This document shows, one piece after another, positions 45,744-62,119 of a stretch of 64,000 bases of DNA. The notes beneath the pieces are model-generated. The model was not told the origin of the DNA, made no database searches, and was given only the letters and a program-made list of their open reading frames with translations. The position numbers were made by a program, and so were the translations under genes. Source of the stretch: [Mycobacterium] vasticus (GTDB lineage Bacteria; Actinomycetota; Actinomycetes; Mycobacteriales; Mycobacteriaceae); the NCBI RefSeq assembly GCF_020181595.1, contig NZ_CP084028.1, forward strand, positions 760,967 through 824,966. Direction: 5' to 3'. Every line of letters starts with the position of its first letter. Positions within the stretch are counted from its first letter, which is position 1.

Positions 45744-46960
45744 CTCACCGTCAGGTAGATCAGGACGGCGTTCAGCGCCGCGATGACGATCGTGACGGTC
45801 CAGCCGAGCGCTGTGGTCAGCGGCCGGTTGGCGTCGTCACCCATCAGTTCCCGGTTGCCGGTCAGATGGACCAGCGGCACCAGCGCGAACGGGATGCCGA
45901 ACGACAGCACCACTTGGGAGATCACCAGTGCCCGGGTGGGGTCGATACCGGTCGCCAGGATCGCCAACGCCGGAAGCAGGGTGATCAGCCGGCGCGTCAG
46001 CATCGGGACCGACACCCGCAGTAGGCCTGCCATGATCATTGCGCCGGCGTGGGCACCCACCGAGGTCGAGGCCAGGCCGGAGGCCAGTAGACCGATCGCG
46101 AACAGCAGTGCGATGGTCGGACCCAATGCATCGCCGATCGCCGCGTGTGCGCCCTCGATCGAGTCGGTGCCGTCGTGGCCGGCCAGGTGCGCCGCGGCCA
46201 CCACCAGCATGGACAGGTTCACCGCACCGGCCACCAGCATGGCCAGACCGACGTCCCAGCGGGTCACCCGCAGCAGCCGGTTCAGGGCCGGGCCGGGCGT
46301 GGGTCGCCCGTGGCGGTCTCGGGCCAGGCCGGAGTGCAGGTACACCGCGTGCGGCATGACGGTGGCACCCAGGATCGCCGTGGTCAGCAGCACACTCTCG
46401 GCGCCGTCGAACCGCGGCAGCAGGCCGCCGGCGACGTGGGCGATTGGCGGTGGCTCGACCACCAGGCTGGCCAGGAACCCGATCGCGATGATCGCCAGCA
46501 GGCCGGTCGCGGTCCGCTCGAAGGCCCGCGGCCCGCGGCGGTCGCCGATCAGCAACAGGCCGATCGACACCACCCCGGTGATGAGCCCGCCGAGCACCAG
46601 GGGCAGGCCGAAGATCAGCCTCAAGGCGATGGCACCGCCCACCACCTCGGCGAGATCGGTTGCCACAGCCACCAATTCAGCTTGCAGCCAGTAGGCGATC
46701 CGGGTCGGCCGGTGGGTCCTGGCGCCGACCACCTCGGGCAGCGACAACCCCGTCACCAGGCCCAGCTTGGCGGCGAGGTACTGCACCAGGCCGGCCATCA
46801 CGTTGGCGCCGACGATCACCCAGACCAGCAGGTAGCCGAACTTGGCACCGGCGCTGACGTTGGCGGCGACATTGCCCGGGTCGACGTAGGCGATGGCGGC
46901 GACGAATGCGGGGCCGAGCAGATACCAGCCGCGCCTACCCGACGTGTCCCCGTGTGTCAT
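45740..46960 (-). CDS. mntH: Nramp-family divalent metal transporter
   Basis: 406 residues from ATG at 46960, about 11 membrane helices. Metal-site motifs DPGNVAANVSAGAKFGY (helix 1) and MPHAVYLHSGL (helix 6) are intact, so H+-coupled uptake of Mn2+ or Fe2+ is expected. The start overlaps the stop of the oxidoreductase gene before it (ATGA), an unexpected operon partner. No MntR box was recognised upstream. Confidence 0.93.
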   Translation of the reverse strand: MTHGDTSGRRGWYLLGPAFVAAIAYVDPGNVAANVSAGAKFGYLLVWVIVGANVMAGLVQYLAAKLGLVTGLSLPEVVGARTHRPTRIAYWLQAELVAVATDLAEVVGGAIALRLIFGLPLVLGGLITGVVSIGLLLIGDRRGPRAFERTATGLLAIIAIGFLASLVVEPPPIAHVAGGLLPRFDGAESVLLTTAILGATVMPHAVYLHSGLARDRHGRPTPGPALNRLLRVTRWDVGLAMLVAGAVNLSMLVVAAAHLAGHDGTDSIEGAHAAIGDALGPTIALLFAIGLLASGLASTSVGAHAGAMIMAGLLRVSVPMLTRRLITLLPALAILATGIDPTRALVISQVVLSFGIPFALVPLVHLTGNRELMGDDANRPLTTALGWTVTIVIAALNAVLIYLTVS

Positions 46961-48036
46961 CGGGGTCGAGCGTAAAGCCCCCGCCCGGTGATCAGCGGCA
47001 GGTCCAGGGTGGTCCGGATACCGGGTTGTGCCGCGACGACCGCCGGAATCGCGTTGACCACCCGCATCGCGGTGGCCACCAGGCCGGCATGGTTGTGGTC
47101 GCCGTTCGGGCTCGACAGGCGCAGGTCCAGCGAATACGACGGTTCGCCGGTCACCACGACCCGGTAGGAGCCGCCGGGCTGGGCCGGTTGCGGCCACTCG
47201 GGGCACAGGTCGTCACGAAGTCGGGTCACGTGTTCGAGCACCACGGCCGGTTGCCCGTCGAGCATGCCGCGCACCTCGAAATGCAGTGCCGCGGCAGTGC
47301 CTTCGGGGATGTGGCCGGACGCGATGTCGAAGTCCTCGGGCGCCGGCTCGCGCTCGTAGATCTCGACGACCTCGTCCAACTCGATGCCCAGCCCGGCCGC
47401 CAGTTGGCGCACCACCGAGCCCCAGGCCAGGCTGAGCACGCCGGGCTGCAGCAGCATCGGGATCTCGTCGATGGGCTTGCCGAACCCCATCACGTCGAAC
47501 ATGACGGCCGCGCTGTCATAGGTGGCGTAGTCGACGATCTCCATGCAGCGGATCTGCTGGATGCTCTGGCAGTTGCCGGCCAAGGCCAGCGGCAACAGGT
47601 CGTTGGCGAAGCCCGGGTCGATGCCATTGATGAATAAGCTTGAACGGCCCTCCCGTGCAGCATCTTCGATCGGGGACAGCATTTCCGGCGGGAGCACCTG
47701 CCACGGGTATTGCAGGAACACCGCGCTGCTGCCGACCACGTTGACGCCGGCGGCCAGGATGCGCCGGAAATCCTCCAGCGCCTCCATCAGCCGGTTGTCG
47801 GCCAGGGTGGTGTAGACCACGCAGTCGGGCTGGGTTGCCAGCACCGCATCCAGGTCGGTCGTGGCCGTTATTCCGGTCGAGACGTCAAGCCCGGCAAGCT
47901 GTCCGGCGTCCTTGCCGGCCTTGGCGTCCGAGGACACCCACACGGCGGTGAGTTCGTAGTCGGGGTTGGTGATCAGCGCCTTGAGGGCGTGGACGCCGAC
48001 GTTTCCGGTACCGATCTGGGCGACGCGAATTGCCAT
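46957..48036 (-). CDS. Dihydrodipicolinate reductase-like NAD(P)-binding protein
   Basis: 359 residues from ATG at 48036 (AAAGGACACC upstream). Rossmann start IRVAQIGTGNVGVHALKAL (3-21), then LDAVLATQPDCVVYTTL and GIDPGFANDLLPL. This is the DapB-N-like amine dehydrogenase/dihydrodipicolinate reductase family that is expanded in mycobacteria next to lipid-degradation genes. Reaction unknown. Coupled to mntH downstream and 8 bases after the SDR gene. Confidence 0.82.
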   Translation of the reverse strand: MAIRVAQIGTGNVGVHALKALITNPDYELTAVWVSSDAKAGKDAGQLAGLDVSTGITATTDLDAVLATQPDCVVYTTLADNRLMEALEDFRRILAAGVNVVGSSAVFLQYPWQVLPPEMLSPIEDAAREGRSSLFINGIDPGFANDLLPLALAGNCQSIQQIRCMEIVDYATYDSAAVMFDVMGFGKPIDEIPMLLQPGVLSLAWGSVVRQLAAGLGIELDEVVEIYEREPAPEDFDIASGHIPEGTAAALHFEVRGMLDGQPAVVLEHVTRLRDDLCPEWPQPAQPGGSYRVVVTGEPSYSLDLRLSSPNGDHNHAGLVATAMRVVNAIPAVVAAQPGIRTTLDLPLITGRGLYARPR

Positions 48037-48044
48037 GGTGTCCT

Positions 48045-48836
48045 TTACAGGTCGGGGATGGGCAGATCGAGATTCGGGAACGTGATGCCCCCGTCGACTT
48101 CGAGTACCTTGCCGGTCAGGTAGCTGCCGGCCGGTGAGGCCAAATAGACTGCCGCGGCGGCGATGTCGTCCGGCTCGCCGAGCCGGCGCAGCGGAGTCAC
48201 CTTCTCCATGGGGGCGCGCAGTTCGTCGTTGGACGCCACCACATCGAGCGCTGAGGTGAGGATGGATCCCGGCGCGATCGCGTTGACCCGGATTCGCGGG
48301 CACAGGTCCATCGCGGCGAGTCGGGTGTAGTGGGCGAGTGCGCCTTTGGCGGTGCCGTAGGCGGCGAATCCGCGCCCGGCCAGGCGTCCCATGGTCGAGG
48401 TGATGTTGATGATCGAGCCGCCACCGGAGTGCTCCAGCATCAACGGCACCGCGGCGGTGGTCAGTGCGTGCGCGGTACCGACGTTGAAGGTGAATGCGTC
48501 TTTGAGGTCTTTGGTCGAGGTGGTCAGCAGCGTGTTGGGCATGGTGCCGCCGACGTTGTTGACGACGATGTCGAGCCTGCCGAACGCGTCGACGGCCTCT
48601 TGTGCCAGCTTGGCGGTCTCTTCGGGATGGGCCAGATCGGCGACGACGATGTGGGCGCGTCGCCCGGCGGCTTCGACCTGTTCGGCGACGGTCTCTAGTT
48701 GGGATCGGGTGCGCGCGGCGATGACGACGTCGGCGCCGGCTTCGGCGAATGCCACCGCGGTTGCTGCGCCCAGGCCACGGCCTGCGCCGGTGACGACGGC
48801 GACGGAGTTGTCGAGTCGGAATTTATCGAGGATCAC
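48045..48836 (-). CDS. Short-chain dehydrogenase/reductase
   Basis: 263 residues from GTG at 48836. Motifs [36 protein letters not shown], and [14 protein letters not shown] (catalytic Tyr-x3-Lys), ending with [13 protein letters not shown]. The Arg in IAARTRSQL favours NADPH. First gene of the SDR - oxidoreductase - mntH run. Confidence 0.88.
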
Positions 48837-48915: not shown

Positions 48916-50391
48916 CTAGAGCTTCATCACCACGCTCTTGGTCTCGGTGTATGCGTGAGCGGCGGACTCTCCGAACTCGCGGCCCAGGCCGGACTGCTTG
49001 AATCCGCCGAAGGGTACCGAGTCGGCCATGTCCCCATAGGTGTTGACCCAGACGACACCACTGCGTATGGCTTCGGCCACCCGGTGTGCCCTGCTGACGT
49101 CGCGCGTCCAAATCCCTGCGCCCAGACCGTAATCGCTGTCGTTGGCCTGCTTCAGCGCGTCGCGCTCGTCGTCGAACGGGATAACCGTGATGACCGGGCC
49201 GAAAATCTCGTCCCGTGCGATCGTCATCGCGTTGGTGGCACCGCTGAATACGGTGGGCGGCACGAAATAGCCGCGCTCGCCCAACCGTGCGCCGCCGATC
49301 GCAAGCTCGGCGCCCTCGGCCTGTCCGCGTTCGATGTAATTGAGTACCCGGGCCAGTTGTTCATCGGAAACCAGCGGTCCGAGTTGGACGGCGGGATCGA
49401 AGCCGCTGCCCACCGTCATCTGTTGAGAGGCACCTACCAGCGCATCGACGACGGTGTCATGGATGGGGCGTTCGACGAACAGCCGGGTGCCCGCGAAGCA
49501 GATCTGCCCGGAGTTCGAGAACGCGCCCAGCAGGGCCCCCGGAATAGCCGCCTCCAGGTCGGCGTCGGCAAAAATGAGATTGGGACTCTTGCCGCCGAGC
49601 TCCAGTGTTACCCGCTTGAGCGTCTCGGCCGCTTTGGCTTGGATCCGTTTCCCCGTTGCGGTGGATCCGGTGAAGGCAATCTTGTCCACTTCGGGATGGG
49701 CTACCAGGGCTGCTCCTACGTCCCCCGGCCCGTGAATGATGTTGACGACTCCGTCCGGAATCCCCGCTTCCAAACACAGTTCGGCGATCAGTGCGCCCGC
49801 CAACGGAGTCTGCTCGGCGGGTTTGATGACGACCGTATTGCCGAACGCCAGAGCCGGAGCGATCTTGACGATCGGATTGGCGACCGGGGCGTTCCACGGT
49901 GTTATCCCCGCACACACCCCGATCGGTTGACGCAACGAGTAGCTGAACAGCGGCGGCGCCACCGGATTGACCTGTCCGTACAACTTGGTGGGCCAGCCGG
50001 CGAAATAGCGGAGCACACCTTCGGCTTTCGCCAGCTCCCACTCTGCGAAAGGCAGTGGCATGCCGTTCTCAAGCACATCCTGGTTGATGAAGTCTTGGGC
50101 ATGGGCCGCGATCAGGTCGGCAAGCTTGTGGAGGGACGCTTCGCGCTGTGCGGGGGCCAACGTGCTCCAGCGGCCGTCATCGAAGGCGCGTCGGGCTGCG
50201 CTGACGGCGGCGTCGACTTCGTACTGACCCGCCTTTGCCACCGATCCGACGCACTCCTCGGTCGCCGGATTCAACACGTCGAAGGTCTCGCCGCTCGCTG
50301 ACGCCACCAACTCGCCGCCAATGAGGTGCCGACCCGGCTGTTGGAGATATTTGGTTGTCGTGGGCGTTGAGGTCATCGTTGTGGTCATCAC
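48916..50391 (-). CDS. Aldehyde dehydrogenase
   Basis: 491 residues from ATG at 50391 (GGAGGAG upstream). Motifs: ITPWNAPVANPIVKIAPALAFGN, KPAEQTPL, FTGSTATGKRIQ, LELGGKSPN (catalytic Glu), SNSGQICFAGTR (catalytic Cys), and FGGFKQSGLGREFG. Oxidises an aldehyde to the acid with NAD(P). Its start is 22 bases from a degenerate copy of the island operator, so it probably belongs to the same regulon although on the other strand. Confidence 0.93.
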   Translation of the reverse strand: MMTTTMTSTPTTTKYLQQPGRHLIGGELVASASGETFDVLNPATEECVGSVAKAGQYEVDAAVSAARRAFDDGRWSTLAPAQREASLHKLADLIAAHAQDFINQDVLENGMPLPFAEWELAKAEGVLRYFAGWPTKLYGQVNPVAPPLFSYSLRQPIGVCAGITPWNAPVANPIVKIAPALAFGNTVVIKPAEQTPLAGALIAELCLEAGIPDGVVNIIHGPGDVGAALVAHPEVDKIAFTGSTATGKRIQAKAAETLKRVTLELGGKSPNLIFADADLEAAIPGALLGAFSNSGQICFAGTRLFVERPIHDTVVDALVGASQQMTVGSGFDPAVQLGPLVSDEQLARVLNYIERGQAEGAELAIGGARLGERGYFVPPTVFSGATNAMTIARDEIFGPVITVIPFDDERDALKQANDSDYGLGAGIWTRDVSRAHRVAEAIRSGVVWVNTYGDMADSVPFGGFKQSGLGREFGESAAHAYTETKSVVMKL

Positions 50392-50412: not shown

Positions 50413-50430
50413 AGTAGGGGATACTCTACA
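50413..50430. promoter_or_regulatory. Island operator, degenerate copy (ALDH/echA divergent promoter)
   Basis: AGTAGGGGATACTCTACA matches AGTACAGGATACTGTACT at 14 of 18 positions and keeps the GTA...TAC dyad (GTAGGGGATACTCTAC). It lies between the divergent aldehyde dehydrogenase and enoyl-CoA hydratase genes. Confidence 0.55.
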
Positions 50431-50491
50431 TTGGTTGGGGTTGTTCGGGGACGAATGACCGGAATCCTTTGTCTGGCTTCGGGAGGTATCT

Positions 50492-51316
50492 GTGATCGGC
50501 GGAATCGGCACGGCCGTCAGTGACGAGACCAGCGATCCGGCGGTACTGCTGGAGCGACATAGCAACGTATTGGTGATCACTCTCAACCGTCCGGAGGCGC
50601 GCAATGCGGTCAACGGTGCGGTGAGCGCGGCCGTCGGTGACGCATTGCAGAGTGCGCAGCGCGACCTCGAGATCCGAGCGGTGGTCATCACCGGCAGCGG
50701 GGAGCGGTCCTTCTGCGCGGGCGCCGACCTGAAGGCCATTGCCCGCGGGGAGAACCTGTTGCATCCGGAGCATCCGGAATGGAGCTTCGCCGGGTATGTC
50801 AATCACTTCATCGACAAGCCGACTATTGCCGCCGTCAACGGCACGGCATTGGGTGGCGGCACTGAACTGGTCCTGGCCAGCGATTTAGCTATCGCCGATG
50901 AGCGTGCGACCTTCGGCCTACCCGAGGTCAAACGGGGTCTCATCGCCGGCGCCGGCGGAGCATTCCGCATCGTGGATCAACTGCCCCGCAAGGTCGCGTT
51001 GGCCGCGTTGTACACCGGCGAGCCGATGTCCGCGCAGGCTGCTGCCGAGTGGGGCCTGATCAACCAGGTGGTGCCCAACGGGACCGCCCTGCAGGCCGCA
51101 TTGGCACTTGCCGCACGGATCGGGGGGAATGCGCCGTTGGCGGTCCGTGCCAGCAAACGAATCGCGTATGGAGCTGATGACGGTCGGGTCGCCGACGAGC
51201 AGCCATCCTGGGAGCGCACCGCGAGTGAGTCCGCTCGGGTGCGGGCCTCCGAGGACGCCAAGGAAGGGCCGCGGGCATTCGCCGAGAAGCGACCACCCGT
51301 GTGGCGCGCCAGGTAA
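50492..51316 (+). CDS. Enoyl-CoA hydratase/isomerase family protein
   Basis: 274 residues from GTG at 50492 (GGAGG upstream). Crotonase markers: SFCAGADLKAI (oxyanion), NGTALGGGTELVLASDL with Glu, and FGLPEVKRGLIAGAGGAFRI where the second catalytic Glu position is present (PEV). Should be an active hydratase for an enoyl-CoA. First plus-strand gene of the catabolic island; the thiolase follows 33 bases on, with an operator copy in the gap. Confidence 0.9.
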   Translation: MIGGIGTAVSDETSDPAVLLERHSNVLVITLNRPEARNAVNGAVSAAVGDALQSAQRDLEIRAVVITGSGERSFCAGADLKAIARGENLLHPEHPEWSFAGYVNHFIDKPTIAAVNGTALGGGTELVLASDLAIADERATFGLPEVKRGLIAGAGGAFRIVDQLPRKVALAALYTGEPMSAQAAAEWGLINQVVPNGTALQAALALAARIGGNAPLAVRASKRIAYGADDGRVADEQPSWERTASESARVRASEDAKEGPRAFAEKRPPVWRAR

Positions 51317-51332
51317 TGCGGGATACTGTACG
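51315..51332. promoter_or_regulatory. Island operator, half-conserved copy before the thiolase gene
   Basis: AATGCGGGATACTGTACG; the right half GGATACTGTAC is exact, the left arm degenerate (14 of 18 matches to the consensus). It sits between the stop of the hydratase and the thiolase start. Confidence 0.45.
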
Positions 51333-51349
51333 GCGATGAGGAGGTACTC

Positions 51350-52528
51350 GTGGAAAAAGCTGTGATTGTCAGCGCGGCGCGCACCCCGATTGCGACCGCC
51401 CGTAAGGGCGCGCTGGCCGAGACGCCGGCGTACGAACTGGCGCAGGCGATTCTGGGCGCGTGTGTGGAGCGTGCGACTGTCGATCCCGCGCTCGTCGAGG
51501 ATGTCATCTTTGCTGAATCGGAGTGGGGCGGAGGTGACCTCGCCCGCTACGCGGCGGTGGCTGCCGGGCTGACGGGCGCAGGAGGGCAGGCCGTCAACCG
51601 CCACTGCGCCGGAAGCCTGGCCGCCGTCGGCAATGCCGCGGCGTCGGTGCGGGCCGGAATGGATCGGATCGTCGTCGCCGGTGGGGTTCAGTCGACTTCG
51701 ACCGCTCCGATCATGACGTGGCGGGTCCCGGGAACCGTTGATGATTACATCGAGGGTTGGCATCCCCCCGGTCACCCCGACCGTCCCGATGCACCCAACC
51801 GTGACATGACGATCACGGTCGGCTGGAACACCGCGCAGGAAGCGGGTATCAGTCGGGAGATGATGGACACCTGGTCGTTGCGTTCACACCAGCGTGCCGT
51901 CGCAGCGATTGACGCGGGGCGGTTCGCGGACGAGATCGTGACTGTCGACGCGCGGCAAAGGGACGGCAGTACAGTTCCTTTCGCGATCGACGAGCATCCT
52001 CGGCGGGAGAGCAGCTACGAAAAGCTGGCTGCGTTGAAACCGTTGCATCCGGAGATTCCCGGCTTTTCGATCACGGCCGGAAATTCCAGTGGTGTCAACG
52101 ACGCCGCATCGGCTTTGATGATCGCGGCGTCCAGTGCGGTCCGCGATCACGGCCTCACACCGCTGGCGACGGTTCGGTCCTGGGCGGCGGTGGGTGTCGA
52201 TCCGGCCCGAACCGGTCTGTCGGTGCTGGACGCGATTCCGAAGGCCCTGGATCGTGCCGGGATCAACATCGACGACGTCGCCCTGTGGGAGATCAACGAA
52301 GCGTTCGCGTCTGTTCCGATCGCCGCCGTGCATAAGTTCGACCTCGACGAGGACAACGTCAATATTTACGGAAGTGGTTGCAGTCTGGGGCATCCCGTTG
52401 CGGCCACCGGAACTCGGATGTTGAGCACGCTCATCTATGAACTGCGGCGACGTAACGGCGGGATCGGGGTTGCGACGATGTGCGCCGGCGGCGGGCAGGG
52501 TGGCGCTGTCGTCATTGAGGTGGCGTGA
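51350..52528 (+). CDS. Acetyl-CoA acetyltransferase (thiolase)
   Basis: 392 residues from GTG at 51350 (AGGAGG six bases upstream). Catalytic residues: nucleophile Cys86 in NRHCAGSLAA, WEINEAFASVP, GCSLGHPVAATGTR (His), and C-terminal CAGGGQGGAVV (Cys). Cleaves 3-ketoacyl-CoA in the last step of a beta-oxidation round. Its 3' end overlaps the convergent alpha/beta hydrolase gene by 17 bases. Confidence 0.94.
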   Translation: MEKAVIVSAARTPIATARKGALAETPAYELAQAILGACVERATVDPALVEDVIFAESEWGGGDLARYAAVAAGLTGAGGQAVNRHCAGSLAAVGNAAASVRAGMDRIVVAGGVQSTSTAPIMTWRVPGTVDDYIEGWHPPGHPDRPDAPNRDMTITVGWNTAQEAGISREMMDTWSLRSHQRAVAAIDAGRFADEIVTVDARQRDGSTVPFAIDEHPRRESSYEKLAALKPLHPEIPGFSITAGNSSGVNDAASALMIAASSAVRDHGLTPLATVRSWAAVGVDPARTGLSVLDAIPKALDRAGINIDDVALWEINEAFASVPIAAVHKFDLDEDNVNIYGSGCSLGHPVAATGTRMLSTLIYELRRRNGGIGVATMCAGGGQGGAVVIEVA

Positions 52529-53423
52529 TCTCCCACTGCGCCAGCACGGTTCGGAGCGCGGTCACCAGGGACAGTGGCTGGTCCAGCATCGGATGATGAC
52601 CGGTGTCGGGAAGGTCCACGACCGGCCCGCGATGGCCCAGCAGCGCTTTCACCTCCTCGCGCATCGTGACAGGGACCAGTCCCTGTTCGGCGCGTAGGAA
52701 GGCTACCCGGCCGCTGATGTGTGGTAGGTGATCGGCAAGGGTGAGTTCTTCCGGCCAACCCTCGTCAAAGAACGAATCATCGAAGAGCGCCGGGTCGAAT
52801 TTCCACTGCCAACCATCGTCGGTCTGACGAATCGACTCCGCGGCGACGTGTTCGGCGATGTAGGGCAGCAGCACCGCCTGCTCGGGAACCGTGGTGAACC
52901 GAGACAGGATGGTTTCGCGAGACTCATACACTGACGCTCGACCCCGGCCGCGAAATCGTGACCGCTCATCCGGTTCGTCGCGCAACGTCGAATCGATGAT
53001 GACGATCCCCGCCAGTTGATCCCCGAAATGCAATGCCGTCGTGGCCGTGACCCAGCCACCCATGCTGTGCCCGATCACGGTGGGTTTCCCTGAGATCCCT
53101 GCGGCGGCCGCGGCGCCCAGTACTTCTGCCGCCCACGCCGTGAGGCCGTACCGGGGCCGACGGTCGCTGTCGCCATGTCCGGTCAGATCCAAGGCGACGA
53201 CGCGATAGGAGCCGGCGAGCAGCGGGGCGATGTGGTCCCACCAGCCGGAGTGTGCGCTACCTCCGTGGACCAAGACCAGTCCTGGGTTCTCAACCCGGCC
53301 CCAACAGCGCAGATGTATCCGATGGCCGTCAACTACAGCATCGCGGTGCTCGGGTGTGTCGTTGAGCGCTGAGTGGAACCACGCCGGAGCAGCAGCACAC
53401 GTACAGGATGCTGATGACGCCAC
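52512..53423 (-). CDS. Alpha/beta hydrolase (Ser nucleophile)
   Basis: 303 residues from GTG at 53423, the only good start; the first 20 residues may be non-native. Motifs: HGGSAHSGWWDH (oxyanion), DLTGHGDSDRRP, VIGHSMGGW (nucleophile Ser), and TGHHPML (His). Possibly an ester, lactone or thioester hydrolase within the island. Divergent from the CoA-transferase gene with a perfect operator between. Confidence 0.85.
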   Translation of the reverse strand: MASSASCTCAAAPAWFHSALNDTPEHRDAVVDGHRIHLRCWGRVENPGLVLVHGGSAHSGWWDHIAPLLAGSYRVVALDLTGHGDSDRRPRYGLTAWAAEVLGAAAAAGISGKPTVIGHSMGGWVTATTALHFGDQLAGIVIIDSTLRDEPDERSRFRGRGRASVYESRETILSRFTTVPEQAVLLPYIAEHVAAESIRQTDDGWQWKFDPALFDDSFFDEGWPEELTLADHLPHISGRVAFLRAEQGLVPVTMREEVKALLGHRGPVVDLPDTGHHPMLDQPLSLVTALRTVLAQWEITPPQ

Positions 53424-53463
53424 AAGTCGGCCCCTTTCCCCGATGAAATCAACCGAGTTCTAT

Positions 53464-53481
53464 AGTACAGTATCCTGTACT
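53464..53481. promoter_or_regulatory. Island operator, perfect copy 1
   Basis: AGTACAG (53464-53470), TATC, CTGTACT (53475-53481): exact 7-base arms. A TATAGT -10-like hexamer (53461-53466) overlaps the left arm. It is 45 bases before the CaiB start and 40 bases from the divergent hydrolase start; a further weak match, CGTACAGGATGCTGATGA, lies at 53400-53417. Confidence 0.75.
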
Positions 53482-53526
53482 CGCACGTCGCGCTTTATCG
53501 ATCGTGTATCCGGAGAGGGGAAGGCT

Positions 53527-56013
53527 ATGCCAGTGAATGGTGTGGGCGACGCCGGCCATGTCGTCGGCTTGACCGGGTCCTGCCCGTTGGATGGCCTGTT
53601 CGTGGTTGACCTGTCCGCGGGTATCGCGGGCGGTTACGCCACCAAGCTCCTTGCCGATGCGGGCGCGGAAGTACTCAAGGTGGAGCCGGATTCCGGTGAC
53701 CCGCTGCGGAGGTGGTCGGTGGGTGGTGGCCGCCAGGACGGAGACGACGGCGCACTCTTTCAGTTTCTGGCAGCCTCCAAGCGCAGCGCCGTGGTCGATC
53801 TCGACTATCCGGCTGACCGGGAGTTTCTGCGCAGCTTGGTGATGGCTGCCGATGCGGTCGTGTGGAGTCCCGACGGAGTAGCCGGAGTGACTGCGGAATT
53901 TCAGCCGACCGCTCTTGCCGAGATAGCCCCTCACGCACCGATCGTCAGTATCACCCCGTTCGGTCTCAACGGTCCGTGGTCGCAGCGCTGCGCATCCGAT
54001 GCCACCCTGCAGGCGTTGTCGGGTGGACTCGGTGTGCGCGGTACACCGTCGCGGGCGCCGGTACTGGTCGGGGGACGGCCGAGCGAATGGATCACCGGAA
54101 TGTTCGCGGCGTTTGGGCTGCTCGCTTCTCGCTATCGCAGTGAGCGCACCGGTGTCGGTGAACTGGTCGATATTTCGGCGCTGGAAGCGATGACCCTGTC
54201 GTCAACGCCGTACGCATTCAGCTACAACGAAATCGCGGGTCGCCCCTGGCGGACGGAACGGACCGCAAACCTTCCTGATATCCACGCCACCGCGGACGGG
54301 TTCGTTGGCTTCATGGTGGTCACCGGACAACAGTGGCTGGACTTCGCCACCATGGTTGGGCGCGACGACTGGGCTGAGGATGCTTCATTGGGCCTGTTGG
54401 TCAATCGCCGTGCCCGCGCCGAGGAACTGCTCGCTCACATCGACAGCTGGACACGCGAGCGCACCACGGCCGAGATCGTGGAATTCGCCGGCCTGCTGCG
54501 AATTCCGGTCGCTGAAGTCGGCGATGGGCAGTCGGTACCCACACTCGAACACTTTGCGGAGCAAGGCTTCTACCGGCGTGATCCGAGCGGGAGCTTTCTA
54601 CAGCCGGAGGTGCCCTACCGGCTGGGCGGCCGAGCGCAGCAACGCCTCCCCGAACCGGCCCCCGTCCTGGGCGAGGCGACGTACCACTATCTGGACCGCA
54701 TCGCCAATGGCGAGTTGCCCCCCAAAACAGCTCCCGCGACTACCAGTGACGGTGGGCTGCCGTTCGAGGGGCTTCGGGTGGCCGACTTCACCGCTTTCTG
54801 GGCCGGACCGATCGCGGGACAGTGCCTGGCGATGTTGGGGGCGGACGTGATTCACGTCGAGTCCACGCAACGTCCGGACGGGATGCGTTTCAATACCGTG
54901 AAGTTGCTGCACGATGACGACTGGTGGGAATGGGCACCGTTGTTCGCCGGGCCCAATACCAACAAGCGCGACGTGACTGTGGACATGTCTGTTGAGAGCG
55001 GTCGCGACTTGGCCCGTCGGCTGATCGCTCGCTGCGACGTCGTCGTGGAGAACTACAGCCCGCGGGTTTTCGACCAGTGGGGTTTTGATGAAGCGAGCCT
55101 GTTGGAGCTGCGGCCCGACCTGGTGGTGGTGCGAATGCCCGCATTCGGGCTCACCGGACCGTCGCGCGAGCGGGTCGGCTTCGCGCAAACCATGGAGCAA
55201 CTGTCCGGGCTGGCCTTCGTCACCGGCTACGAGGACGGGCCGCCGGAGACGCCCAACGGGATCTGCGACCCGATCGCCGGGGTGCACGCGGCGATCGCGG
55301 TGCTGCTGGGTCTGGAACACCGGCGCCGTACCGGCAGTGGCCTGCAGATCGAATCGATCATGATCGGCGGGGCGCTCAATGTGGCCGCCGAGCAGGTCAT
55401 CGAATACTCCGCGTACGGCAATCTGGTGCAACGACAGGGCAACCGGTCGCCGTGGGCGGCACCGCAAGGCGTCTACCTGGCAGCCGATGTGGGCGTCGAC
55501 GGGTCACGCGACTCCTGGGTGGTGATCGCCGCGGAATCCGATGCACAGTGGCGCGCATTGTTGACAGTGGTCGGAGCACCCGCTGAAGCGGGCATCAACT
55601 GGCTCGACTCCGACGCGGCGAGCCGGAGCCGAGTTCACGATCTGCTCGACCAGCACCTGGCGGATTGGTGCGCAGTCCGGTCCGCCGATGAGATCGTCAA
55701 CAAACTGTGGTTGCGCGGAGTTCCCGCCGCCCCGGTGTTGCTTCCGCATGAACTGGACCGCGTCGACCAATTTGCCGCGCGCGAATTCATCGAAGAGGTG
55801 GCGCATCCGATCACCGGCACCAATCGTCACATCGGGTTCCCGGCCCGGTTCTCCGCGGGTCCCCGCCGGATTCATCGCCATCCCGCCCCGACACTCGGCC
55901 AACACAACCGCGACGTGCTCTGCGGTCTCCTCGGGCTCAGCGATGACGACTACGCCAAGCTCGTCGACACCGCCGTGGTCGGCGCTCGCCCCGCCGGTGG
56001 GCGGGGCTGGTAA
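53527..56013 (+). CDS. Double-length CaiB/BaiF (class III) CoA-transferase
   Basis: 828 residues from ATG at 53527, about twice the usual 400. Half 1 begins LDGLFVVDLSAGIAGGYATK (about 20); half 2 begins FEGLRVADFTAFWAGPIAGQ (about 410). The nucleophile Asp of this family appears in half 2 (ICDPIAGVHAA), while in half 1 the equivalent place reads RPSEWITGMFAA, so Asp seems replaced. One half may be structural, building the interlocked dimer in one chain. It would move CoA from a donor such as an acyl-CoA to the pathway acid. RBS GGAGAGGGGAAGG upstream. Confidence 0.85.
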   Translation: MPVNGVGDAGHVVGLTGSCPLDGLFVVDLSAGIAGGYATKLLADAGAEVLKVEPDSGDPLRRWSVGGGRQDGDDGALFQFLAASKRSAVVDLDYPADREFLRSLVMAADAVVWSPDGVAGVTAEFQPTALAEIAPHAPIVSITPFGLNGPWSQRCASDATLQALSGGLGVRGTPSRAPVLVGGRPSEWITGMFAAFGLLASRYRSERTGVGELVDISALEAMTLSSTPYAFSYNEIAGRPWRTERTANLPDIHATADGFVGFMVVTGQQWLDFATMVGRDDWAEDASLGLLVNRRARAEELLAHIDSWTRERTTAEIVEFAGLLRIPVAEVGDGQSVPTLEHFAEQGFYRRDPSGSFLQPEVPYRLGGRAQQRLPEPAPVLGEATYHYLDRIANGELPPKTAPATTSDGGLPFEGLRVADFTAFWAGPIAGQCLAMLGADVIHVESTQRPDGMRFNTVKLLHDDDWWEWAPLFAGPNTNKRDVTVDMSVESGRDLARRLIARCDVVVENYSPRVFDQWGFDEASLLELRPDLVVVRMPAFGLTGPSRERVGFAQTMEQLSGLAFVTGYEDGPPETPNGICDPIAGVHAAIAVLLGLEHRRRTGSGLQIESIMIGGALNVAAEQVIEYSAYGNLVQRQGNRSPWAAPQGVYLAADVGVDGSRDSWVVIAAESDAQWRALLTVVGAPAEAGINWLDSDAASRSRVHDLLDQHLADWCAVRSADEIVNKLWLRGVPAAPVLLPHELDRVDQFAAREFIEEVAHPITGTNRHIGFPARFSAGPRRIHRHPAPTLGQHNRDVLCGLLGLSDDDYAKLVDTAVVGARPAGGRGW

Positions 56014-56047
56014 ATCAACCGCTCGCCGACTCCACAGGAGGAACTGC

Positions 56048-58189
56048 ATGGCACTGGCTATCACCGACGAACACGAGGCGCTGACCGAGGTCGTCCAGTC
56101 GTTCGTCGCCAAACACGACACACGTGCGGTCGCGCGACAACTGCTTGACGCCCCATCTGAGACTTGCCCGGACTTCTGGCCGGACATCGTCAACCTCGGC
56201 TGGTTGGGCCTACATCTGCCGGAAGATTGCGGCGGGCAGGGCTTCGGTCTGCCTGAGTTGGCGGTAATCCTCGAACAGCTGGCCCGATCGGTCACCCCCG
56301 GGCCCTACCTGCCGACGGTGCTGGCCAGCGCAGTGCTGGCGCAACTGGGTGCGGCGCCGGAGCTGGTCGGCAAGTTGGCAGATGGAACCTGCACTGCCGC
56401 AGTTGGATTCGGTGATGGGCTGCGTCGATCAGAGTCGTCGGTGAGTGGTACGGTGCCCGCGGTACTCGGCGCGGAATTGGCGGATGTGCTGCTGTTGGTG
56501 GTCGGTGACGACGCGGTGGTCGTCGAGGCCGGCGCCAAGGGTGTGGTGATCTGTCACGGCACGGACCTTGATCCGACCCGGCGAGCTCCCGCGGTGTCGT
56601 TGGCCGAGGTTCCGGTCGATGTCCTGCTGTCGGGCGGGGCGCGTCACGTGATTACCGTGGCGCGCTTGCTGTTAGCGGCGGAAGCAACCGGCCTTGCGTC
56701 TGCGTGCACCGACATGGCAGTGCAATATGCCAAGCAGCGAGAGCAGTTCGGACGTGTCATCGGATCGTTCCAAGCCATCAAACACCTTGCCGCCGACATG
56801 TTGGTGAGCACTGAGATGGCTACCGCAGCGGTGTGGGACGCCGTGCGATGCGACCCCACGGAGCCGGCAATGGAACTGGCCGCCGCGGTCGCGGCCGTGC
56901 AGGCGATGCCCGCCGCTGTCGTCAACGCCCAGCGTTGCATCCAGGTGCACGGCGGAATCGGCTTCACCTGGGAACACGATGCCGGGCTGTACCTGCGACG
57001 GGCGTCGGCATTATCAGCACTGCTGTCAGCGCTCGGCGACGCCGAGATGGAAGTGGCCGAACGCACCGCCGACGGTGTCACCCGGCACTACGGGATCGAG
57101 TTGCCCGAGGACGCCGAACGGTTCCGCGCCGAGGCCGCCGAGGCCGCCGCTCATGTGGCTGGGCTCCCGATCACTGAGCGGCGGCGGTACCTCGCCGAAA
57201 CCGGATACCTCAGCCCGCACTGGCCATCGCCGTGGGGGCGGGGAGCCGACCCGGCCGAACAGCTGGTCATCGAGGATGAGTTCCGCGGTGTTGAGGTTCC
57301 GAATTTGGGGATCACCGGGTGGAACATCCTGACCGTCATCCAGGCGGGTACCGACGAACAGCAGAACCGATGGGTGCCGGCGGCCTTGGCCGGCACCGAG
57401 AAGTGGTGCCAGCTGTTTTCGGAACCGGGCGCCGGTTCTGACGCCGCCGCGATCAAGACGAAGGGAATCCGTGCCGACGGCGGTTGGCTGGTGACCGGCC
57501 AGAAGGTGTGGACCAGCGGTGCGAAGGACTGCCGCTGGGGATTCGCCACCGTGCGTACCGACTCCTCCGGGTCGAAACACTCCGGCGTCACCATGATGAC
57601 CATCGACATGACCGGTCCCGGCGTAGAAATTCGGCCGCTGCGCGAGCTGACCGGAGAGTCGCTGTTCAATGAGGTGTTCCTGGACGAGGTGTTTGTGCCG
57701 GACGCCGATGTGGTCGGACCGGTCGGTGAGGGCTGGGCGGTGGCCCGCGCCGTACTGGGAAATGAACGGATTTCGATCGGCGGTGGGGCGTCGCGGGTCG
57801 GCTTCACCGCTGATCAACTGCCCCCCCTGTTGTCCGTGCTCGGTCGCGATGACTCAGGAAGTCTGCGTACCGCAGGAGAATTGATCTCCGAGCAGCAAAC
57901 TCTGCAGCTGCTCAACCTCCGCCAGGCCGCCCGCGCGGTCACCGGGGAGGGGCCGGGGCCCGAAGGCAACATCACCAAGTTGGTCAACGGTTTGCACATT
58001 CAGCGTGTCACTGAATTCGCGATGAAGGTGATCGGTGTCGAGGCGATCAACGGTGGTGACTTCACAGATCTGGTGCACGCTTACCTGCTGGGCCGGTGTT
58101 ACACGATCGCCGGCGGCACCACGGAGATCGTACGCAATCAGATCGCGGAGCGGCTCCTGCGGCTGCCACGTGAGTCGTTGTCGTCGTAA
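56048..58189 (+). CDS. Double-length acyl-CoA dehydrogenase (FadE34-like)
   Basis: 713 residues from ATG at 56048 (AGGAGG upstream), close to the 711 of M. tuberculosis FadE34. Half 1 (about 1-370) is a beta-type ACAD (YAKQREQFGRVIGSFQAIKH, VHGGIGFTWEHDAGLYLRRA). Half 2 (about 375-713) has LFSEPGAGSDAAAIKT, VWTSGAKD, FNEVFLDEVFVPDADVVG, and IAGGTTEIVRNQIAERLL with the catalytic Glu. So one chain holds the heterodimer seen split elsewhere. 34 bases after the CoA-transferase. Confidence 0.9.
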   Translation: MALAITDEHEALTEVVQSFVAKHDTRAVARQLLDAPSETCPDFWPDIVNLGWLGLHLPEDCGGQGFGLPELAVILEQLARSVTPGPYLPTVLASAVLAQLGAAPELVGKLADGTCTAAVGFGDGLRRSESSVSGTVPAVLGAELADVLLLVVGDDAVVVEAGAKGVVICHGTDLDPTRRAPAVSLAEVPVDVLLSGGARHVITVARLLLAAEATGLASACTDMAVQYAKQREQFGRVIGSFQAIKHLAADMLVSTEMATAAVWDAVRCDPTEPAMELAAAVAAVQAMPAAVVNAQRCIQVHGGIGFTWEHDAGLYLRRASALSALLSALGDAEMEVAERTADGVTRHYGIELPEDAERFRAEAAEAAAHVAGLPITERRRYLAETGYLSPHWPSPWGRGADPAEQLVIEDEFRGVEVPNLGITGWNILTVIQAGTDEQQNRWVPAALAGTEKWCQLFSEPGAGSDAAAIKTKGIRADGGWLVTGQKVWTSGAKDCRWGFATVRTDSSGSKHSGVTMMTIDMTGPGVEIRPLRELTGESLFNEVFLDEVFVPDADVVGPVGEGWAVARAVLGNERISIGGGASRVGFTADQLPPLLSVLGRDDSGSLRTAGELISEQQTLQLLNLRQAARAVTGEGPGPEGNITKLVNGLHIQRVTEFAMKVIGVEAINGGDFTDLVHAYLLGRCYTIAGGTTEIVRNQIAERLLRLPRESLSS

Positions 58190-58224
58190 TTCATTTCCCC
58201 AGAACCGGATTCAAGGAGGAAGTT

Positions 58225-59373
58225 ATGTCCGTCGCCGAAACTGCGCACCAACCCAAGTGGGTCACCAACACCCGCCATGGTGAGATCCATCCGCTGCGTG
58301 TCGGCTTGGTGCAGGACTGGGCGCTGGGTCTGCAACCCACCCAGGACTACTACGACGCGGTCCGGCTCGGCCTCGACGAAGCCGTCGAGGACGGTTTGTT
58401 GGAACGCCCGGTCGAGCTGGAGATCAAAGAGGCGTGGGGACTACCCAACGGCACCGCCCACGACGTCCATCAGGCGTGGCGGGAGCTGGTGGATTCCGGG
58501 GTGCTGGCCGTCATCGGACCCAGCATGAGTGAAGACTCGGTGTCGTTGCGCGACACCATCGAAACACTCAAAGTACCCACTCTGACCTTGAGCGCCACTT
58601 TTGGATTCGGTGGCGAGTACTGCTTCCAAACCCCCAACGGCACCTTCGCCGACGAGACCCAAGTCGGCGTGGACTATCTGCGTCATATCGGAGTGTCCTC
58701 GATGGGTCTGGTCTACGACATGAACTTCATCGGCGAAGAGTACGGACGCTCGGCGTTGCACGCAGCACGTCGACGCAAGCTCACCGTCAGCAGTAGTCAG
58801 ATGGTGCCGTCCTTTGCGACGCACGACATGCTGGTGGACTCACTGGGCAAGATTCGGCACTCCGGTGCGGAGGCCTTGATGTATGTCGGTGTGGGCGCCC
58901 TGCATCTTCAGTTGGCCAGTGCCTTGGCCGAACTCGACTGGAACCCGCCGAAGGTGACCGGCACCAGCTTCATCGGCAGTATCGAAGGGTTTGAGCGCAA
59001 ACAGGACTTCGAGGGCTGGGTGGGCGTGGAACAGTTCGACGAACGCAACCCGGTGTTCGTAAAGTTGATGGATTCCTTCGAGCGCCGGTTCGGCAGACGG
59101 CCCGCCCACGGTTACACCGCGGTGGGTTACGACCAGGGCCGGCTGCTGGCCGAAGGTCTTGCCAACGCCAAGCCGACTTCACCTTCCGGGGTCAAGGCCG
59201 GGCTGGAGATGGTGCGGATGCTGCCCGCCGCAGCCGGCGCTCCGGGCACCGTGATGAGCCTGGCCCCGTACGACCACCGCGCCTACAAGGGCGACTATTT
59301 CGTGCTGCGGACCATCAAGAACGGGGAAAACGTGCTCGTCGGCAGTGCGACCGACTTCCTTCCCCGCGAGTGA
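58225..59373 (+). CDS. Periplasmic-binding-fold (LivK-type) protein without signal peptide
   Basis: 382 residues from ATG at 58225 (AAGGAGGAAG upstream). Type I substrate-binding fold (Peripla_BP_6): PLRVGLVQDWALGLQPTQDYYDAVRLGLDEA, GVLAVIGPSMSEDSVSLRDTIE, GLVYDMNFIGEEYGRSALHAARRR, EALMYVGVGALHLQL, HGYTAVGYDQGRLLAEGLANA. The N-terminus MSVAETAHQPKWVTNTRHGE is polar: no signal peptide or lipobox, and no ABC permease or ATPase genes lie nearby. Perhaps a cytoplasmic ligand sensor or binder. Confidence 0.8.
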   Translation: MSVAETAHQPKWVTNTRHGEIHPLRVGLVQDWALGLQPTQDYYDAVRLGLDEAVEDGLLERPVELEIKEAWGLPNGTAHDVHQAWRELVDSGVLAVIGPSMSEDSVSLRDTIETLKVPTLTLSATFGFGGEYCFQTPNGTFADETQVGVDYLRHIGVSSMGLVYDMNFIGEEYGRSALHAARRRKLTVSSSQMVPSFATHDMLVDSLGKIRHSGAEALMYVGVGALHLQLASALAELDWNPPKVTGTSFIGSIEGFERKQDFEGWVGVEQFDERNPVFVKLMDSFERRFGRRPAHGYTAVGYDQGRLLAEGLANAKPTSPSGVKAGLEMVRMLPAAAGAPGTVMSLAPYDHRAYKGDYFVLRTIKNGENVLVGSATDFLPRE

Positions 59374-59460
59374 CGAACCGTCGAAACCGAATATCGAGTT
59401 AAGAGCACTGCACAACCGCAACTCCGAGGATAGCCCGAGGACAGACTTGCGGTAAACCCT

Positions 59461-59478
59461 AGTACAGGATACTGTACT
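59461..59478. promoter_or_regulatory. Island operator, perfect copy 2
   Basis: AGTACAG (59461-59467), GATA, CTGTACT (59472-59478). Same arms as copy 1, with the central four bases inverted (GATA for TATC), so the two sites are the same sequence on opposite strands. Lies in a 129-base gap before the amidohydrolase gene, 25 bases upstream of its ATG, and marks a new transcription unit. Confidence 0.75.
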
Positions 59479-59502: not shown

Positions 59503-60627
59503 ATGACTTCCGAGCACGAATTCGATCTCATCAGCGTCGATGACCACATCATCGAGCCGGCTCACCTCTGGGTGGACCGGCTGCCGGCGAAATACCGCGA
59601 GATCGGCCCGCACGTCGAGGTCGAGGGGGACCGCGAGTACTGGGTGTACGAGGGGCGCCGCGGCGAGACGATGGGCCTCAACGCCGTGGCCGGCAAGGAG
59701 CGCACCGAGTACAGCCAGGAGCCGGCGCGGTTTTCGGACATGATCCCGGGCTGCTATGACCCCAAGGAGCGGGTTAAAGACATGGACCGCGATGGAGTCC
59801 GTGGCAGCCTGAGCTTCCCGAGCTACCCGCAGTTCTGCGGCCAGAAGTTCATGAAGGGCAAGGACAAGGTTCTCTCCGACCTTTGCGTGAAAGCCTGGAA
59901 CGACTTCATCCTCGACGAGTGGTGCGCTGCCGGTCCGGACCGCTTCATCCCGATGATCATCGGCCAGTTGTGGGACCCCGAAATGTTTGCTGAGGAGGTT
60001 CGGCGCTGCGCGGCGAAGGGCGCCAAGGCGATCTCATTCAGTGAGAATCCGCACCTGCTGCGGCTGCCCTCGCTACACAGCGATCACTGGGATCCAGTGT
60101 GGCGCGCTGCCGTCGAGACCGACATGCCGATCTGCATGCACATCGGGTCGTCATCGACCGAACAGCACACCGCGCCCGATGCTCCATGGAGCATCGCCGC
60201 CGCACTGCAACCGCTCAACGCCCACATGGCGGCCACCGACATCATGTGGAGCCCGATCACGCACAAGTTCCCGGCCATCAAGTTCGTGATGTCCGAGGGT
60301 GGTATCGGGTGGCTTCCGTTCGCGCTTGAGCGTGCGGACTGGATCTGGGAGAAGCATGGCCACTGGGACAACCTGTCCGACACCCCACCGTCAGAGATCT
60401 TCAAACGCAACATCTGGGGCTGCTTCACCGGCGACCGCAGCGGAGTCGAGGCGCGTTACGCGATCGGGGTCGACAAAATCATGTGGGAGTCCGACTATCC
60501 GCACGTCGACTCCAGTTGGCCGAACAGTCAAGAGCACGTGCGCAAGAACATGGAAGGCGTGCCCAAAGACGAGGTTGACCTGATGACACACGGTAACGCA
60601 GAACGGGTATTCAACTTCCCCGGCTGA
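59503..60627 (+). CDS. Amidohydrolase family protein (ACMSD/Amidohydro_2 type)
   Basis: 374 residues from ATG at 59503 (AGAAGGAG upstream). Family pattern: LISVDDHIIEPAHLWVDRLP (the HxH of zinc enzymes reads DDH), CMHIGSSS, KFVMSEGGIGWLPFALERADWIWEKH, and MWESDYPHVDSSWPNS with the metal-binding Asp. Zinc-dependent hydrolases or decarboxylases of cyclic or aromatic acids fall here. Substrate unknown. Heads the amidohydrolase-ALDH-P450-ACAD unit. Confidence 0.88.
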   Translation: MTSEHEFDLISVDDHIIEPAHLWVDRLPAKYREIGPHVEVEGDREYWVYEGRRGETMGLNAVAGKERTEYSQEPARFSDMIPGCYDPKERVKDMDRDGVRGSLSFPSYPQFCGQKFMKGKDKVLSDLCVKAWNDFILDEWCAAGPDRFIPMIIGQLWDPEMFAEEVRRCAAKGAKAISFSENPHLLRLPSLHSDHWDPVWRAAVETDMPICMHIGSSSTEQHTAPDAPWSIAAALQPLNAHMAATDIMWSPITHKFPAIKFVMSEGGIGWLPFALERADWIWEKHGHWDNLSDTPPSEIFKRNIWGCFTGDRSGVEARYAIGVDKIMWESDYPHVDSSWPNSQEHVRKNMEGVPKDEVDLMTHGNAERVFNFPG

Positions 60628-60628
60628 G

Positions 60629-62119
60629 ATGATCTCCCAGCCCACGGTCGACTGGAAAGTGCAGCCCATGGCATCCGCCGGATTACCACATATTCGACAC
60701 CTGCTCGGCTCGGAATGGACAACCACCGGGCCGGAGCTACTCGAACACATCTCTCCCTCGACGGGCCAAGTGCAGGCACGCTTCAGCGGCGCCGGTGCGG
60801 ACGAGGTCGACCGCGCGGTGGCCGCCGCGCGGTCGGCTTTCGTCGAGTGGCGCAAGGTCGCTCCCGCCAAGCGGCGGCAGCTCCTGGAACGGCTGAGCGC
60901 ACTGATCTTGGCCGCTCGCGACGAGCTGCGCGACATCGGTGTCGCTGAATGCGGAACGCCGGTGCGGCAAGGCGGCGGAGCGGTACTCGCGGCCCGCTAC
61001 ACCGCGTATTTCGCCGGGTGGGCCGACAAACTTGACGGCTTGGTCGCCCCGGTCGGTCACAACGCGTTGGACTATGTGCTGCCGCAGCCCTACGGCGTGG
61101 TAGCGGCGCTGATTCCGTGGAACGCCCCGGTGCCATCGCTGGGCATGAAACTCAGCCCCGCTTTGGCGATGGGCAACTGCGTCGTCCTGAAACCATCTCC
61201 GCTGGCACCCTTCGCCACCGTTCGATTCGTGGAACTGTGCCAGGAGGCCGGGTTTCCGCCCGGGGTGGTCAACCTGGTTCATGGTGGTGCCGATGCCGGC
61301 GAGCTGCTGGTCGGCCACCCCGGGGTGGACAAGATCACGTTCACCGGCGGTGTCGCCACAGGCCGGGCCGTAATGCGCACTGCGGCAGCTAATCTCACGC
61401 CGGTTACCCTCGAGCTCGGTGGCAAGGGGGCCCTGGTCGCGTTCGACGACGTCGATGCGGATCGGGTCGCGAGCGACGCGGTCGGCTACAGCGTCGGAAC
61501 CCTGGCGGGCCAGGCATGCGCCCTGCCGACTCGGGTGATCGTGGAGCAGAGCAGGTACGAAGAAGTGGCTTCCGCGGTGGCGAAGCGGTTCGCCGAACTT
61601 CGGATGGGCGATCCCGCCGATGAGAGCGCCGATGTCGGGCCGCTGATCTCGGCCGATGCCCAGCGGCGCGTGGTCGGGATCATTGAGCATGCCCGAGAGC
61701 ACGACAACGCCACGATCCTGATCGGGGGTGGCGCCGACGGCGGACCGTCGGGTAACGGCTTCTGGGTGGAACCGACCCTGGTCGCCGACGTCGCACCGGA
61801 CGCTGCGGTGGTGCAGGGTGAGGTCTTCGGGCCGGTCGTCACCATCCAATCGTTCACCGACGAGGCCGAAGCGGTCGCGTTGGCCAACGGGACCGATTAC
61901 GGGCTGTCGGCGTTTGTCTACACCGAGGATCTCAAGCGTGCCCATCGGGTCGCACGGGATCTCGAGGCGGGCTACGTCTCGGTCAACGGATTCGCCTACC
62001 TGCCACCGGAAACCCCCTTCGGAGGGTGGAAGTCGAGCGGATTCGGTCGCGAAGGTGGCCGAGCCGGTGTGGAGGACTTTGTGCAGACCAAAAACGTCTA
62101 TATACCGATTGGGAATTGA
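60629..62119 (+). CDS. Aldehyde dehydrogenase
   Basis: 496 residues from ATG at 60629, one base after the amidohydrolase stop; an in-frame ATG at 60668 is a possible later start. Motifs: IPWNAPVPSLGMKLSPALAMGN, KPSPLAPF, FTGGVATGRAVM, LELGGKGALVAF (Glu), GTLAGQACALPTR (Cys), and FGGWKSSGFGREGG. Second ALDH of the region, probably following the P450/alcohol step. Confidence 0.93.
   Translation: MISQPTVDWKVQPMASAGLPHIRHLLGSEWTTTGPELLEHISPSTGQVQARFSGAGADEVDRAVAAARSAFVEWRKVAPAKRRQLLERLSALILAARDELRDIGVAECGTPVRQGGGAVLAARYTAYFAGWADKLDGLVAPVGHNALDYVLPQPYGVVAALIPWNAPVPSLGMKLSPALAMGNCVVLKPSPLAPFATVRFVELCQEAGFPPGVVNLVHGGADAGELLVGHPGVDKITFTGGVATGRAVMRTAAANLTPVTLELGGKGALVAFDDVDADRVASDAVGYSVGTLAGQACALPTRVIVEQSRYEEVASAVAKRFAELRMGDPADESADVGPLISADAQRRVVGIIEHAREHDNATILIGGGADGGPSGNGFWVEPTLVADVAPDAAVVQGEVFGPVVTIQSFTDEAEAVALANGTDYGLSAFVYTEDLKRAHRVARDLEAGYVSVNGFAYLPPETPFGGWKSSGFGREGGRAGVEDFVQTKNVYIPIGN

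Follow-up and report, generated by a model that had tools for sequence, protein, structure and literature searches.

A repeated palindrome in a mycobacterial catabolic block as the predicted operator of a FadR-type GntR regulator

We analysed a 64,000-nucleotide stretch of the [Mycobacterium] vasticus genome (the window; C1:760967-824966 of a genome consisting of one contig of 4,546,962 bases), in which an 18-bp inverted repeat recurs in front of genes for coenzyme A (CoA)-thioester metabolism. Places past its end are given as window-equivalents, that is, in window numbering carried past the end. On sequence evidence, the repeat is very probably the operator of a GntR regulator of the FadR subfamily (FCD-domain type), which we call GntR A and whose gene (window-equivalent 73823-74599, minus strand) lies 9.8 kb past the window end. 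GntR A has an N-terminal GntR winged helix (PF00392, E 1.2e-08) and a C-terminal FCD domain (PF07729, E 5.1e-22), both above cut-off. An earlier note on this DNA had postulated one TetR- or GntR-like repressor, whose gene was not obvious in the window, and had proposed looking for a regulator gene with the site in its own promoter. That search found GntR A, in whose divergent promoter a copy (74681-74696) lies 81 bp upstream of the ATG. A single regulator of the GntR type is thus supported, because the sites and the own-promoter copy match the operator predicted for GntR A homologues.

Re-scanning the window bore out the positions of the two perfect sites and their relation as reverse complements (Table 1). 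Their recurrence by chance had been called unlikely, and indeed four window matches to the consensus of the earlier note were found at up to 3 mismatches against 0.40 expected, with none of 100 shuffles reaching four; the remaining two of these matches, at 38711 and 40702, have 3 mismatches each. The two weaker copies (50413-50430 and 51315-51332) are present, with 4 mismatches each to the arms by hand count, and both carry GGATACTnTAC, which is common to 7/8 sites. All four sites had been described as intergenic. The copy at 51315 is not strictly so because it shares the last two bases of the hydratase open reading frame (ORF; 50492-51316). A fifth weak match claimed at 53400 was not recovered at up to 3 mismatches and is a half-site only (GTACAGGATGCT), at the 5' end of the alpha/beta-hydrolase ORF.

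Lining up the perfect and weaker sites, all of which have GGATAC and TAC, gave the refined consensus GTAnnGGATACTnTAC. Eight copies with 0-2 mismatches lie within about 35 kb, from window position 50414 to 85903. Across the 4.55-Mb genome, all five exact matches to GTAnnGGATACTnTAC fall in the cluster, as do seven of the eight with 0-1 mismatch (50414, 53465, 59462, 73811, 74681, 85755 and 85888). The consensus of the earlier note likewise has all three of its genomic places with 0-1 mismatch in the cluster, but at up to 2 mismatches it occurs at 10 places compared with 11 for the reversed pattern; for GTAnnGGATACTnTAC the corresponding numbers are 20 strand hits and 39 for the reversed control. 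Because two-mismatch counts do not exceed those of reversed patterns, only hits with 0-1 mismatch are informative. No copy within 2 mismatches was present in 400 kb of other DNA of this genome, taken as 20 stretches at set places.

Three places outside the cluster were considered as additional targets: C1:2942867 (1 mismatch), the sole hit with 0-1 mismatch outside it, and C1:1154689 and C1:860197 (2 mismatches each), which are part of the two-mismatch places there. All were dropped because, by our own frame scoring, they are within long reading frames. The least certain of these decisions concerns C1:1154689, which falls in the 5' part of a frame that starts with TTG and encodes an acyl-CoA ligase.

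We compared the sites with the loci of GntR A homologues. Among the best 120 of 128 protein matches only two are close relatives (86% and 83% identical), and none of the rest exceeds 50% identity. When species genomes were scanned, the best 80 of 361 relatives, none of them from this genome, gave 78 loci with homologues 39-50% identical to GntR A. The GTAnnGGATACTnTAC-type motif is not enriched in these loci (0, 0, 8 and 86 hits at 0, 1, 2 and 3 mismatches compared with 0, 1, 10 and 133 for the control), which itself counts against the assignment, and for this reason the loci were searched for a motif de novo, by k-mer enrichment followed by an iterated matrix. Four related seeds, one from our own motif, converged; the matrix used from here on was seeded with a k-mer of the homologue loci. 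A further seed, TTGGCGTA, gave an unspecific matrix and was dropped, and listing sites by a near-exact core had at first recovered few, the central bases being variable.

The search yielded a family palindrome, aAWWnAGTrtACTnWWTt. Its sites above 14 bits number 267 and are spread over 70/78 loci. In an early round the matrix had 535 strand hits compared with 8 for its reverse. The final matrix has its 267 sites in 1.47 Mb of training DNA, whereas two sets of control stretches that showed no GntR A homologue, one from relatives and one from this genome, have 4 and 3 per 400 kb. In the training loci, 34 sites fall in the 400 bp ahead of the regulator match, compared with 5.6 expected.

This family matrix, built without the present genome, was applied to 124 kb around the window with a threshold of 14. 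Its top four places are operator copies: 74679 (21.0), 59460 (20.9, rank 2), 53463 (20.9, rank 3) and 50412 (16.4, rank 4); the reversed matrix reaches at most 13.0. On this evidence, the predicted operator core of our sites is in register with the family AGTrtACT operator. Outside the training set, we took five of seven plasmid records with a homologue, leaving out one that is unannotated and one with the match figures of a record already taken. A site above 14 lies just upstream of the regulator gene in all five, and the five loci together have 13 sites compared with 1 for the reversed matrix. Independence from the training set is incomplete for the two Streptomyces plasmid loci, whose sites resemble those of loci used in training, and greater for the three Rhodococcus loci.

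Several further observations weigh against the assignment of the repeat to GntR A and against the readings built on it. The other four copies in the cluster score 12.9, 10.5, 10.0 (the copy at 51315..51332) and 9.2 with the family matrix (ranks 7, 10, 12 and 16), and places that are not copies, among them 103399 (14.2) and 69386 (13.9), outscore them. Only 70/78 training loci have a site above threshold at all, and in only 26/78 does a site lie in the 400 bp ahead of the regulator. For the two close orthologues, P0002 (86%) and P0003 (83%), the comparison was of proteins only, apart from any operator. The base before the left core half is G in 5/8 of our sites compared with A in 86% of family sites. 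The 73811 site lies between converging 3' ends, so that simple blocking of a promoter makes no sense there. A score of 4/6 to TTGACA is reached by 1/8 sites in the listed orientation (2/3 in the other), compared with 12.5% of random places. Finally, the relation between wing and arms discussed below rests on one clade.

The notion of one repressor for all units also needs qualification. Sequence evidence supports it for the units with sites, but no clear copy accompanies the divergent pair 66755-69247 / 69420-73784; the AT-rich place at 69386 in its promoter stays just under the threshold.

Could another regulator of the cluster own the repeat? The neighbouring TetR gene adjoins that of GntR A, the 73811 site starts 26 bp past its stop codon, and an 18-bp inverted repeat would fit a TetR dimer. 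We nevertheless regard TetR as an improbable owner. The promoter of its unit (u337, a protein with epimerase and phosphoenolpyruvate (PEP)-utiliser domains and, as the last gene, TetR) has no copy within 3 mismatches and holds a different inverted repeat, TAATTAACTGCA-N5-TGCAGATAATTA (window-equivalent 69373-69401), and a TetR homologue (E <=1e-20) was found in just 4/78 loci. The repeat TAATTAACTGCA-N5-TGCAGATAATTA is a candidate operator for TetR itself and may define a second sub-regulon.

The chances of GntR B, the second FCD-type GntR of the cluster, are slimmer still. It is of the FadR type with an FCD domain, and its 3' end is 1.1-1.3 kb away from the sites at 85755 and 85888; yet it belongs to another branch, being 29% identical to GntR A with the wing RQGAAGGVFVT, and its own promoter has no copy within 3 mismatches. 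A different palindrome-like place, TTAACGAGTTAACTGAATGT (87915-87934, family-matrix score 9.4), lies about 75 bp upstream of GntR B and may be its own site.

We also considered whether, instead of being an operator, the sites might be promoter (-10) elements common to the units or copies of some small repeat. The element GGATACTGTAC contains -10-like hexamers directed toward the nearest gene start at 51316, 59462, 85755 and 85888, and TTGC[CG][GT] stands 17 bp before TAC[TC]GT at 3/8 sites (59462, 74681 and 85888; at site 59461 as TTGCGG before TACTGT). However, conservation extends into the arms beyond the -10 (TAC on one side in 8/8 sites), the two perfect sites are palindromic in 8/9 half-positions (the weakest two in 4/9), and a related palindrome follows a GntR family across genera. 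We regard this as the most remote of the three alternatives. With GntR A as the regulator, the -10 probably lies under the operator, an arrangement typical of repression, but by TTGACA matching at the sites the placing of the promoters is weak.

In the mechanism that we propose, a GntR A dimer would occupy the -10 region of the units and block transcription, its own gene included, until a pathway acid or acyl-CoA bound the FCD domain and released it. Acyl-CoA is a known ligand of FadR. Release by such a ligand is what we would expect because GntR A belongs to the FCD class, whose regulators have carboxylic acid ligands in the part of the subfamily survey considered here (PMC4494728). The VSRAVLRE recognition helix would read the shared core, and the altered wing (M-G-K-G-P-S) would go with the altered arms (GTA...TAC).

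The basis for the last two steps is a comparison of sites and proteins. Our sites and those of the family align in register on GATACT and differ in one base pair per arm, with GTA...TAC in our sites and AWW...WWT in the family. The outer arm position is G:C in 15/16 of our half-sites compared with 16% in the family; the binomial figure for this difference treats half-sites as independent and serves as a guide only. The left core half is GG in 8/8 of our sites, whereas the family has mostly GT (T 71%, G 26%). On the protein side, the recognition helix VSRAVLRE is identical in 33/78 locus homologues and VSRAVFRE in 17 more. The wing reads M-G-K-G-P-S in GntR A and its two close relatives and mostly M-R-R-G-P-G elsewhere; relative to the sub-branch wing M-R/K-R/K-G-P-x-G-G-L, GntR A keeps GPxGGL and has GK in place of RR. 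The first wing position is R, K or Q in 116/119 alignable proteins and G in 3/119 (GntR A and the two relatives); among the 78 locus homologues it is R in 77, K in 1 and G in none. The corresponding wing stretch of E. coli FadR contacts DNA according to the part of PMC4494728 considered, the matching of positions being ours.

We hypothesize that wing and arms changed together. More broadly, and with less than even confidence, we propose that an actinobacterial FadR/FCD branch shares the operator code aAWWnAGTrtACTnWWTt for CoA-type catabolic clusters, a code that we did not find described, and that in the GntR A clade the wing change R->G went with a change of the outermost arm from A:T to G:C, giving a private operator insulated from regulators with the same helix. 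The own-genome paralogue L111 (40% identical, wing MRMGRSGGL) neither supports nor breaks such a rule because it has no site above 6.4 within 3.7 kb.

The predicted system appears to be a FadR-type regulon built in the usual way; its operator is a private variant within a class that we did not find described. Like GntR A, members of the FadR subfamily have a winged helix and an FCD domain, their operators are palindromic, as is the one predicted for GntR A, and cases are known of divergent promoters sharing a single site at the centre (Suvorova et al. 2015, PMC4494728, in the part considered). The consensus given there consists of TKGT/ACMA boxes (TKGT-N2/3-ACMA), whereas the GntR A family has nAGT-rt-ACTn with A/T arms, that is, GT-N2-AC with A before GT; our sites have AC on one half, GG on the other and GTA/TAC arms. 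The closest solved sequences, all of GntR/FCD type, are NanR (PDB 6on4, 6wfq and 6wg7), PdhR (9jpj) and the LldR-type 2di3, named LldR in the part of PMC4494728 considered; they are remote (E 8e-21 to 1e-20 with the GntR A profile). The NanR operator is a (GGTATA)3 repeat in the part of PMC8012715 considered, unlike the palindrome here. FadR-like regulators of M. smegmatis belong to the same subfamily and have predicted sites upstream of the regulator genes; the rows of Table 3 that we considered (PMC2018728) list GT/AC-type sites, none of them equal to AGTATACT or GTACAGGATACTGTAC. We recognised no description of our operator or of the family operator in one open-access library, to which the search was confined.

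Linking the predicted regulator and its operator to this catabolic block, about 40 kb long, offers a direct route to the substrate, as the compound that releases GntR A. With an operator valid for the whole family, sequence alone would reveal the regulons of many FadR-type regulators that are still uncharacterised in mycobacteria, rhodococci, streptomycetes and their relatives, and the difference in wing and arms makes a clean, small test of specificity change in these proteins.

Regulator and operator appear to be rare. Searches in which 6 to 17 top first-look candidates were scored for each genome found GntR A (E <=1e-60) in none of 395 other genomes of the genus, with up to 6 such candidates scored in each, and (E <=1e-45) in none of 200 others in a family-level draw, partly the same genomes. 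A close orthologue with DNA was found neither in the contig scan of species genomes (best 50% identity) nor on plasmids (best 45%). The exact motif was found in none of 147 genomes, in which the reversed pattern has 10 hits. At the order level it occurs in 1/396 other genomes, as a single hit with no relative of the cluster proteins (E <=1e-5) within about 10 kb on either side. Regulator and operator may have come in together.

Table 1. Predicted operator sites, other regulator genes and genes of the catabolic block (past the window end, positions are window-equivalents)
Feature	Position	Strand	Sequence or basis	Remarks
Perfect predicted operator	53464..53481	-	AGTACAGTATCCTGTACT; minus-strand reading AGTACAGGATACTGTACT	between alpha/beta-hydrolase (-) and double CoA-transferase (+)
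Perfect predicted operator	59461..59478	+	AGTACAGGATACTGTACT	24 bp before amidohydrolase start
Predicted operator copy	50413..50430	+	AGTAGGGGATACTCTACA	between divergent aldehyde dehydrogenase (-) and enoyl-CoA hydratase (+)
Predicted operator copy	51315..51332	+	AATGCGGGATACTGTACG	17 bp before thiolase start; two mismatches to GTAnnGGATACTnTAC
Predicted operator copies past window end	73811, 74681, 85755, 85888		search with GTAnnGGATACTnTAC	
GntR B, FCD type	87022-87840	-	Pfam	
TetR, TetR_N + TetR_C_11	73143-73784		Pfam	
Two further TetR genes	88795-89397, 90437-91054		Pfam	
ORF with DapB_N / DAP_DH_C domains	46957..48303	-	Pfam; NCBIfam matches below cut-off	domains from ~residue 91
Short-chain dehydrogenase/reductase (SDR) oxidoreductase	48045..48836	-	Pfam; NF005873 above cut-off	
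Aldehyde dehydrogenase	48916..50391	-	Pfam	
Enoyl-CoA hydratase/isomerase family protein	50492..51316	+	Pfam	
Thiolase	51350..52528	+	Pfam; TIGR01930 above cut-off	
Alpha/beta hydrolase	52512..53423	-	Pfam	
Double family III CoA-transferase	53527..56013	+	Pfam	two CoA_transf_3 stretches, 828 aa
ORF with two acyl-CoA dehydrogenase N- and C-domain stretches	55688..58189	+	Pfam	start uncertain, overlaps preceding ORF
Peripla_BP_6 ligand-binding-type protein	58225..59373	+	Pfam	
Amidohydrolase (Amidohydro_2)	59503..60627	+	Pfam	
Aldehyde dehydrogenase	60629..62119	+	Pfam	
Cytochrome P450 ORF	62026..63351	+	Pfam; NCBIfam run with later start	start uncertain

Gene content was read from Pfam and NCBIfam (of 10 proteins run against the latter, 2 were above cut-off), and genes were grouped into transcripts by order and spacing. 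By these assignments the block of about 40 kb would be one of genes for CoA-thioester metabolism. Site 50414 faces the unit of aldehyde dehydrogenase, SDR and DapB-like protein on the minus strand, which ends with the 46957..48303 ORF (its true start is probably later than called), and enoyl-CoA hydratase on the plus strand. Site 51316 faces the thiolase. Site 53465 faces the alpha/beta-hydrolase (minus) and the double CoA-transferase, acyl-CoA dehydrogenases and Peripla_BP_6 protein (plus); site 59462 faces the amidohydrolase, aldehyde dehydrogenase, P450 and acyl-CoA dehydrogenases. Site 74681 has GntR A on its minus side and, on its plus side, an alpha/beta-hydrolase, a CoA-transferase, two AMP ligases, a second DapB-like protein and an alcohol dehydrogenase. 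Site 85755 faces an SDR (minus) and site 85888 faces u336 (plus).

The copy at 73811-73826 is flanked by the 3' ends of TetR and GntR A, which converge there; it covers the GntR A stop codon and is 870 bp from the copy in the GntR A promoter, so that a loop or a roadblock is possible. Ahead of the second double CoA-transferase gene (66755-69247, minus), the sequence GGTACCGTACGG (window-equivalent 69271-69282) looks by eye like the operator's right half lacking one base.

The five Rhodococcus and Streptomyces plasmids with homologous FCD regulators and the family operator include R. jostii RHA1 pRHL2 and R. opacus pR1CP1, and their regulators lie near adenylate-forming, acyl-CoA dehydrogenase or amidohydrolase genes.

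Three proteins of the block, 334-337 aa long (window-equivalents 69420-70433, 82107-83111 and 85973-86983), are mutually related (40% and 25% identical); no Pfam match of u334, u336 or u337 reaches the cut-off. An unusual protein of 877 aa (window-equivalent 70473-73106) begins with an NAD-dependent epimerase domain and ends with a PEP-utiliser mobile domain. The two double family III CoA-transferases (53527-56013 and window-equivalent 66755-69247) are 29% identical, and the two DapB-like proteins are 28% identical. Because both the CoA-transferase and the DapB-like protein are doubled in one block, the pairs suggest two parallel pathway branches.

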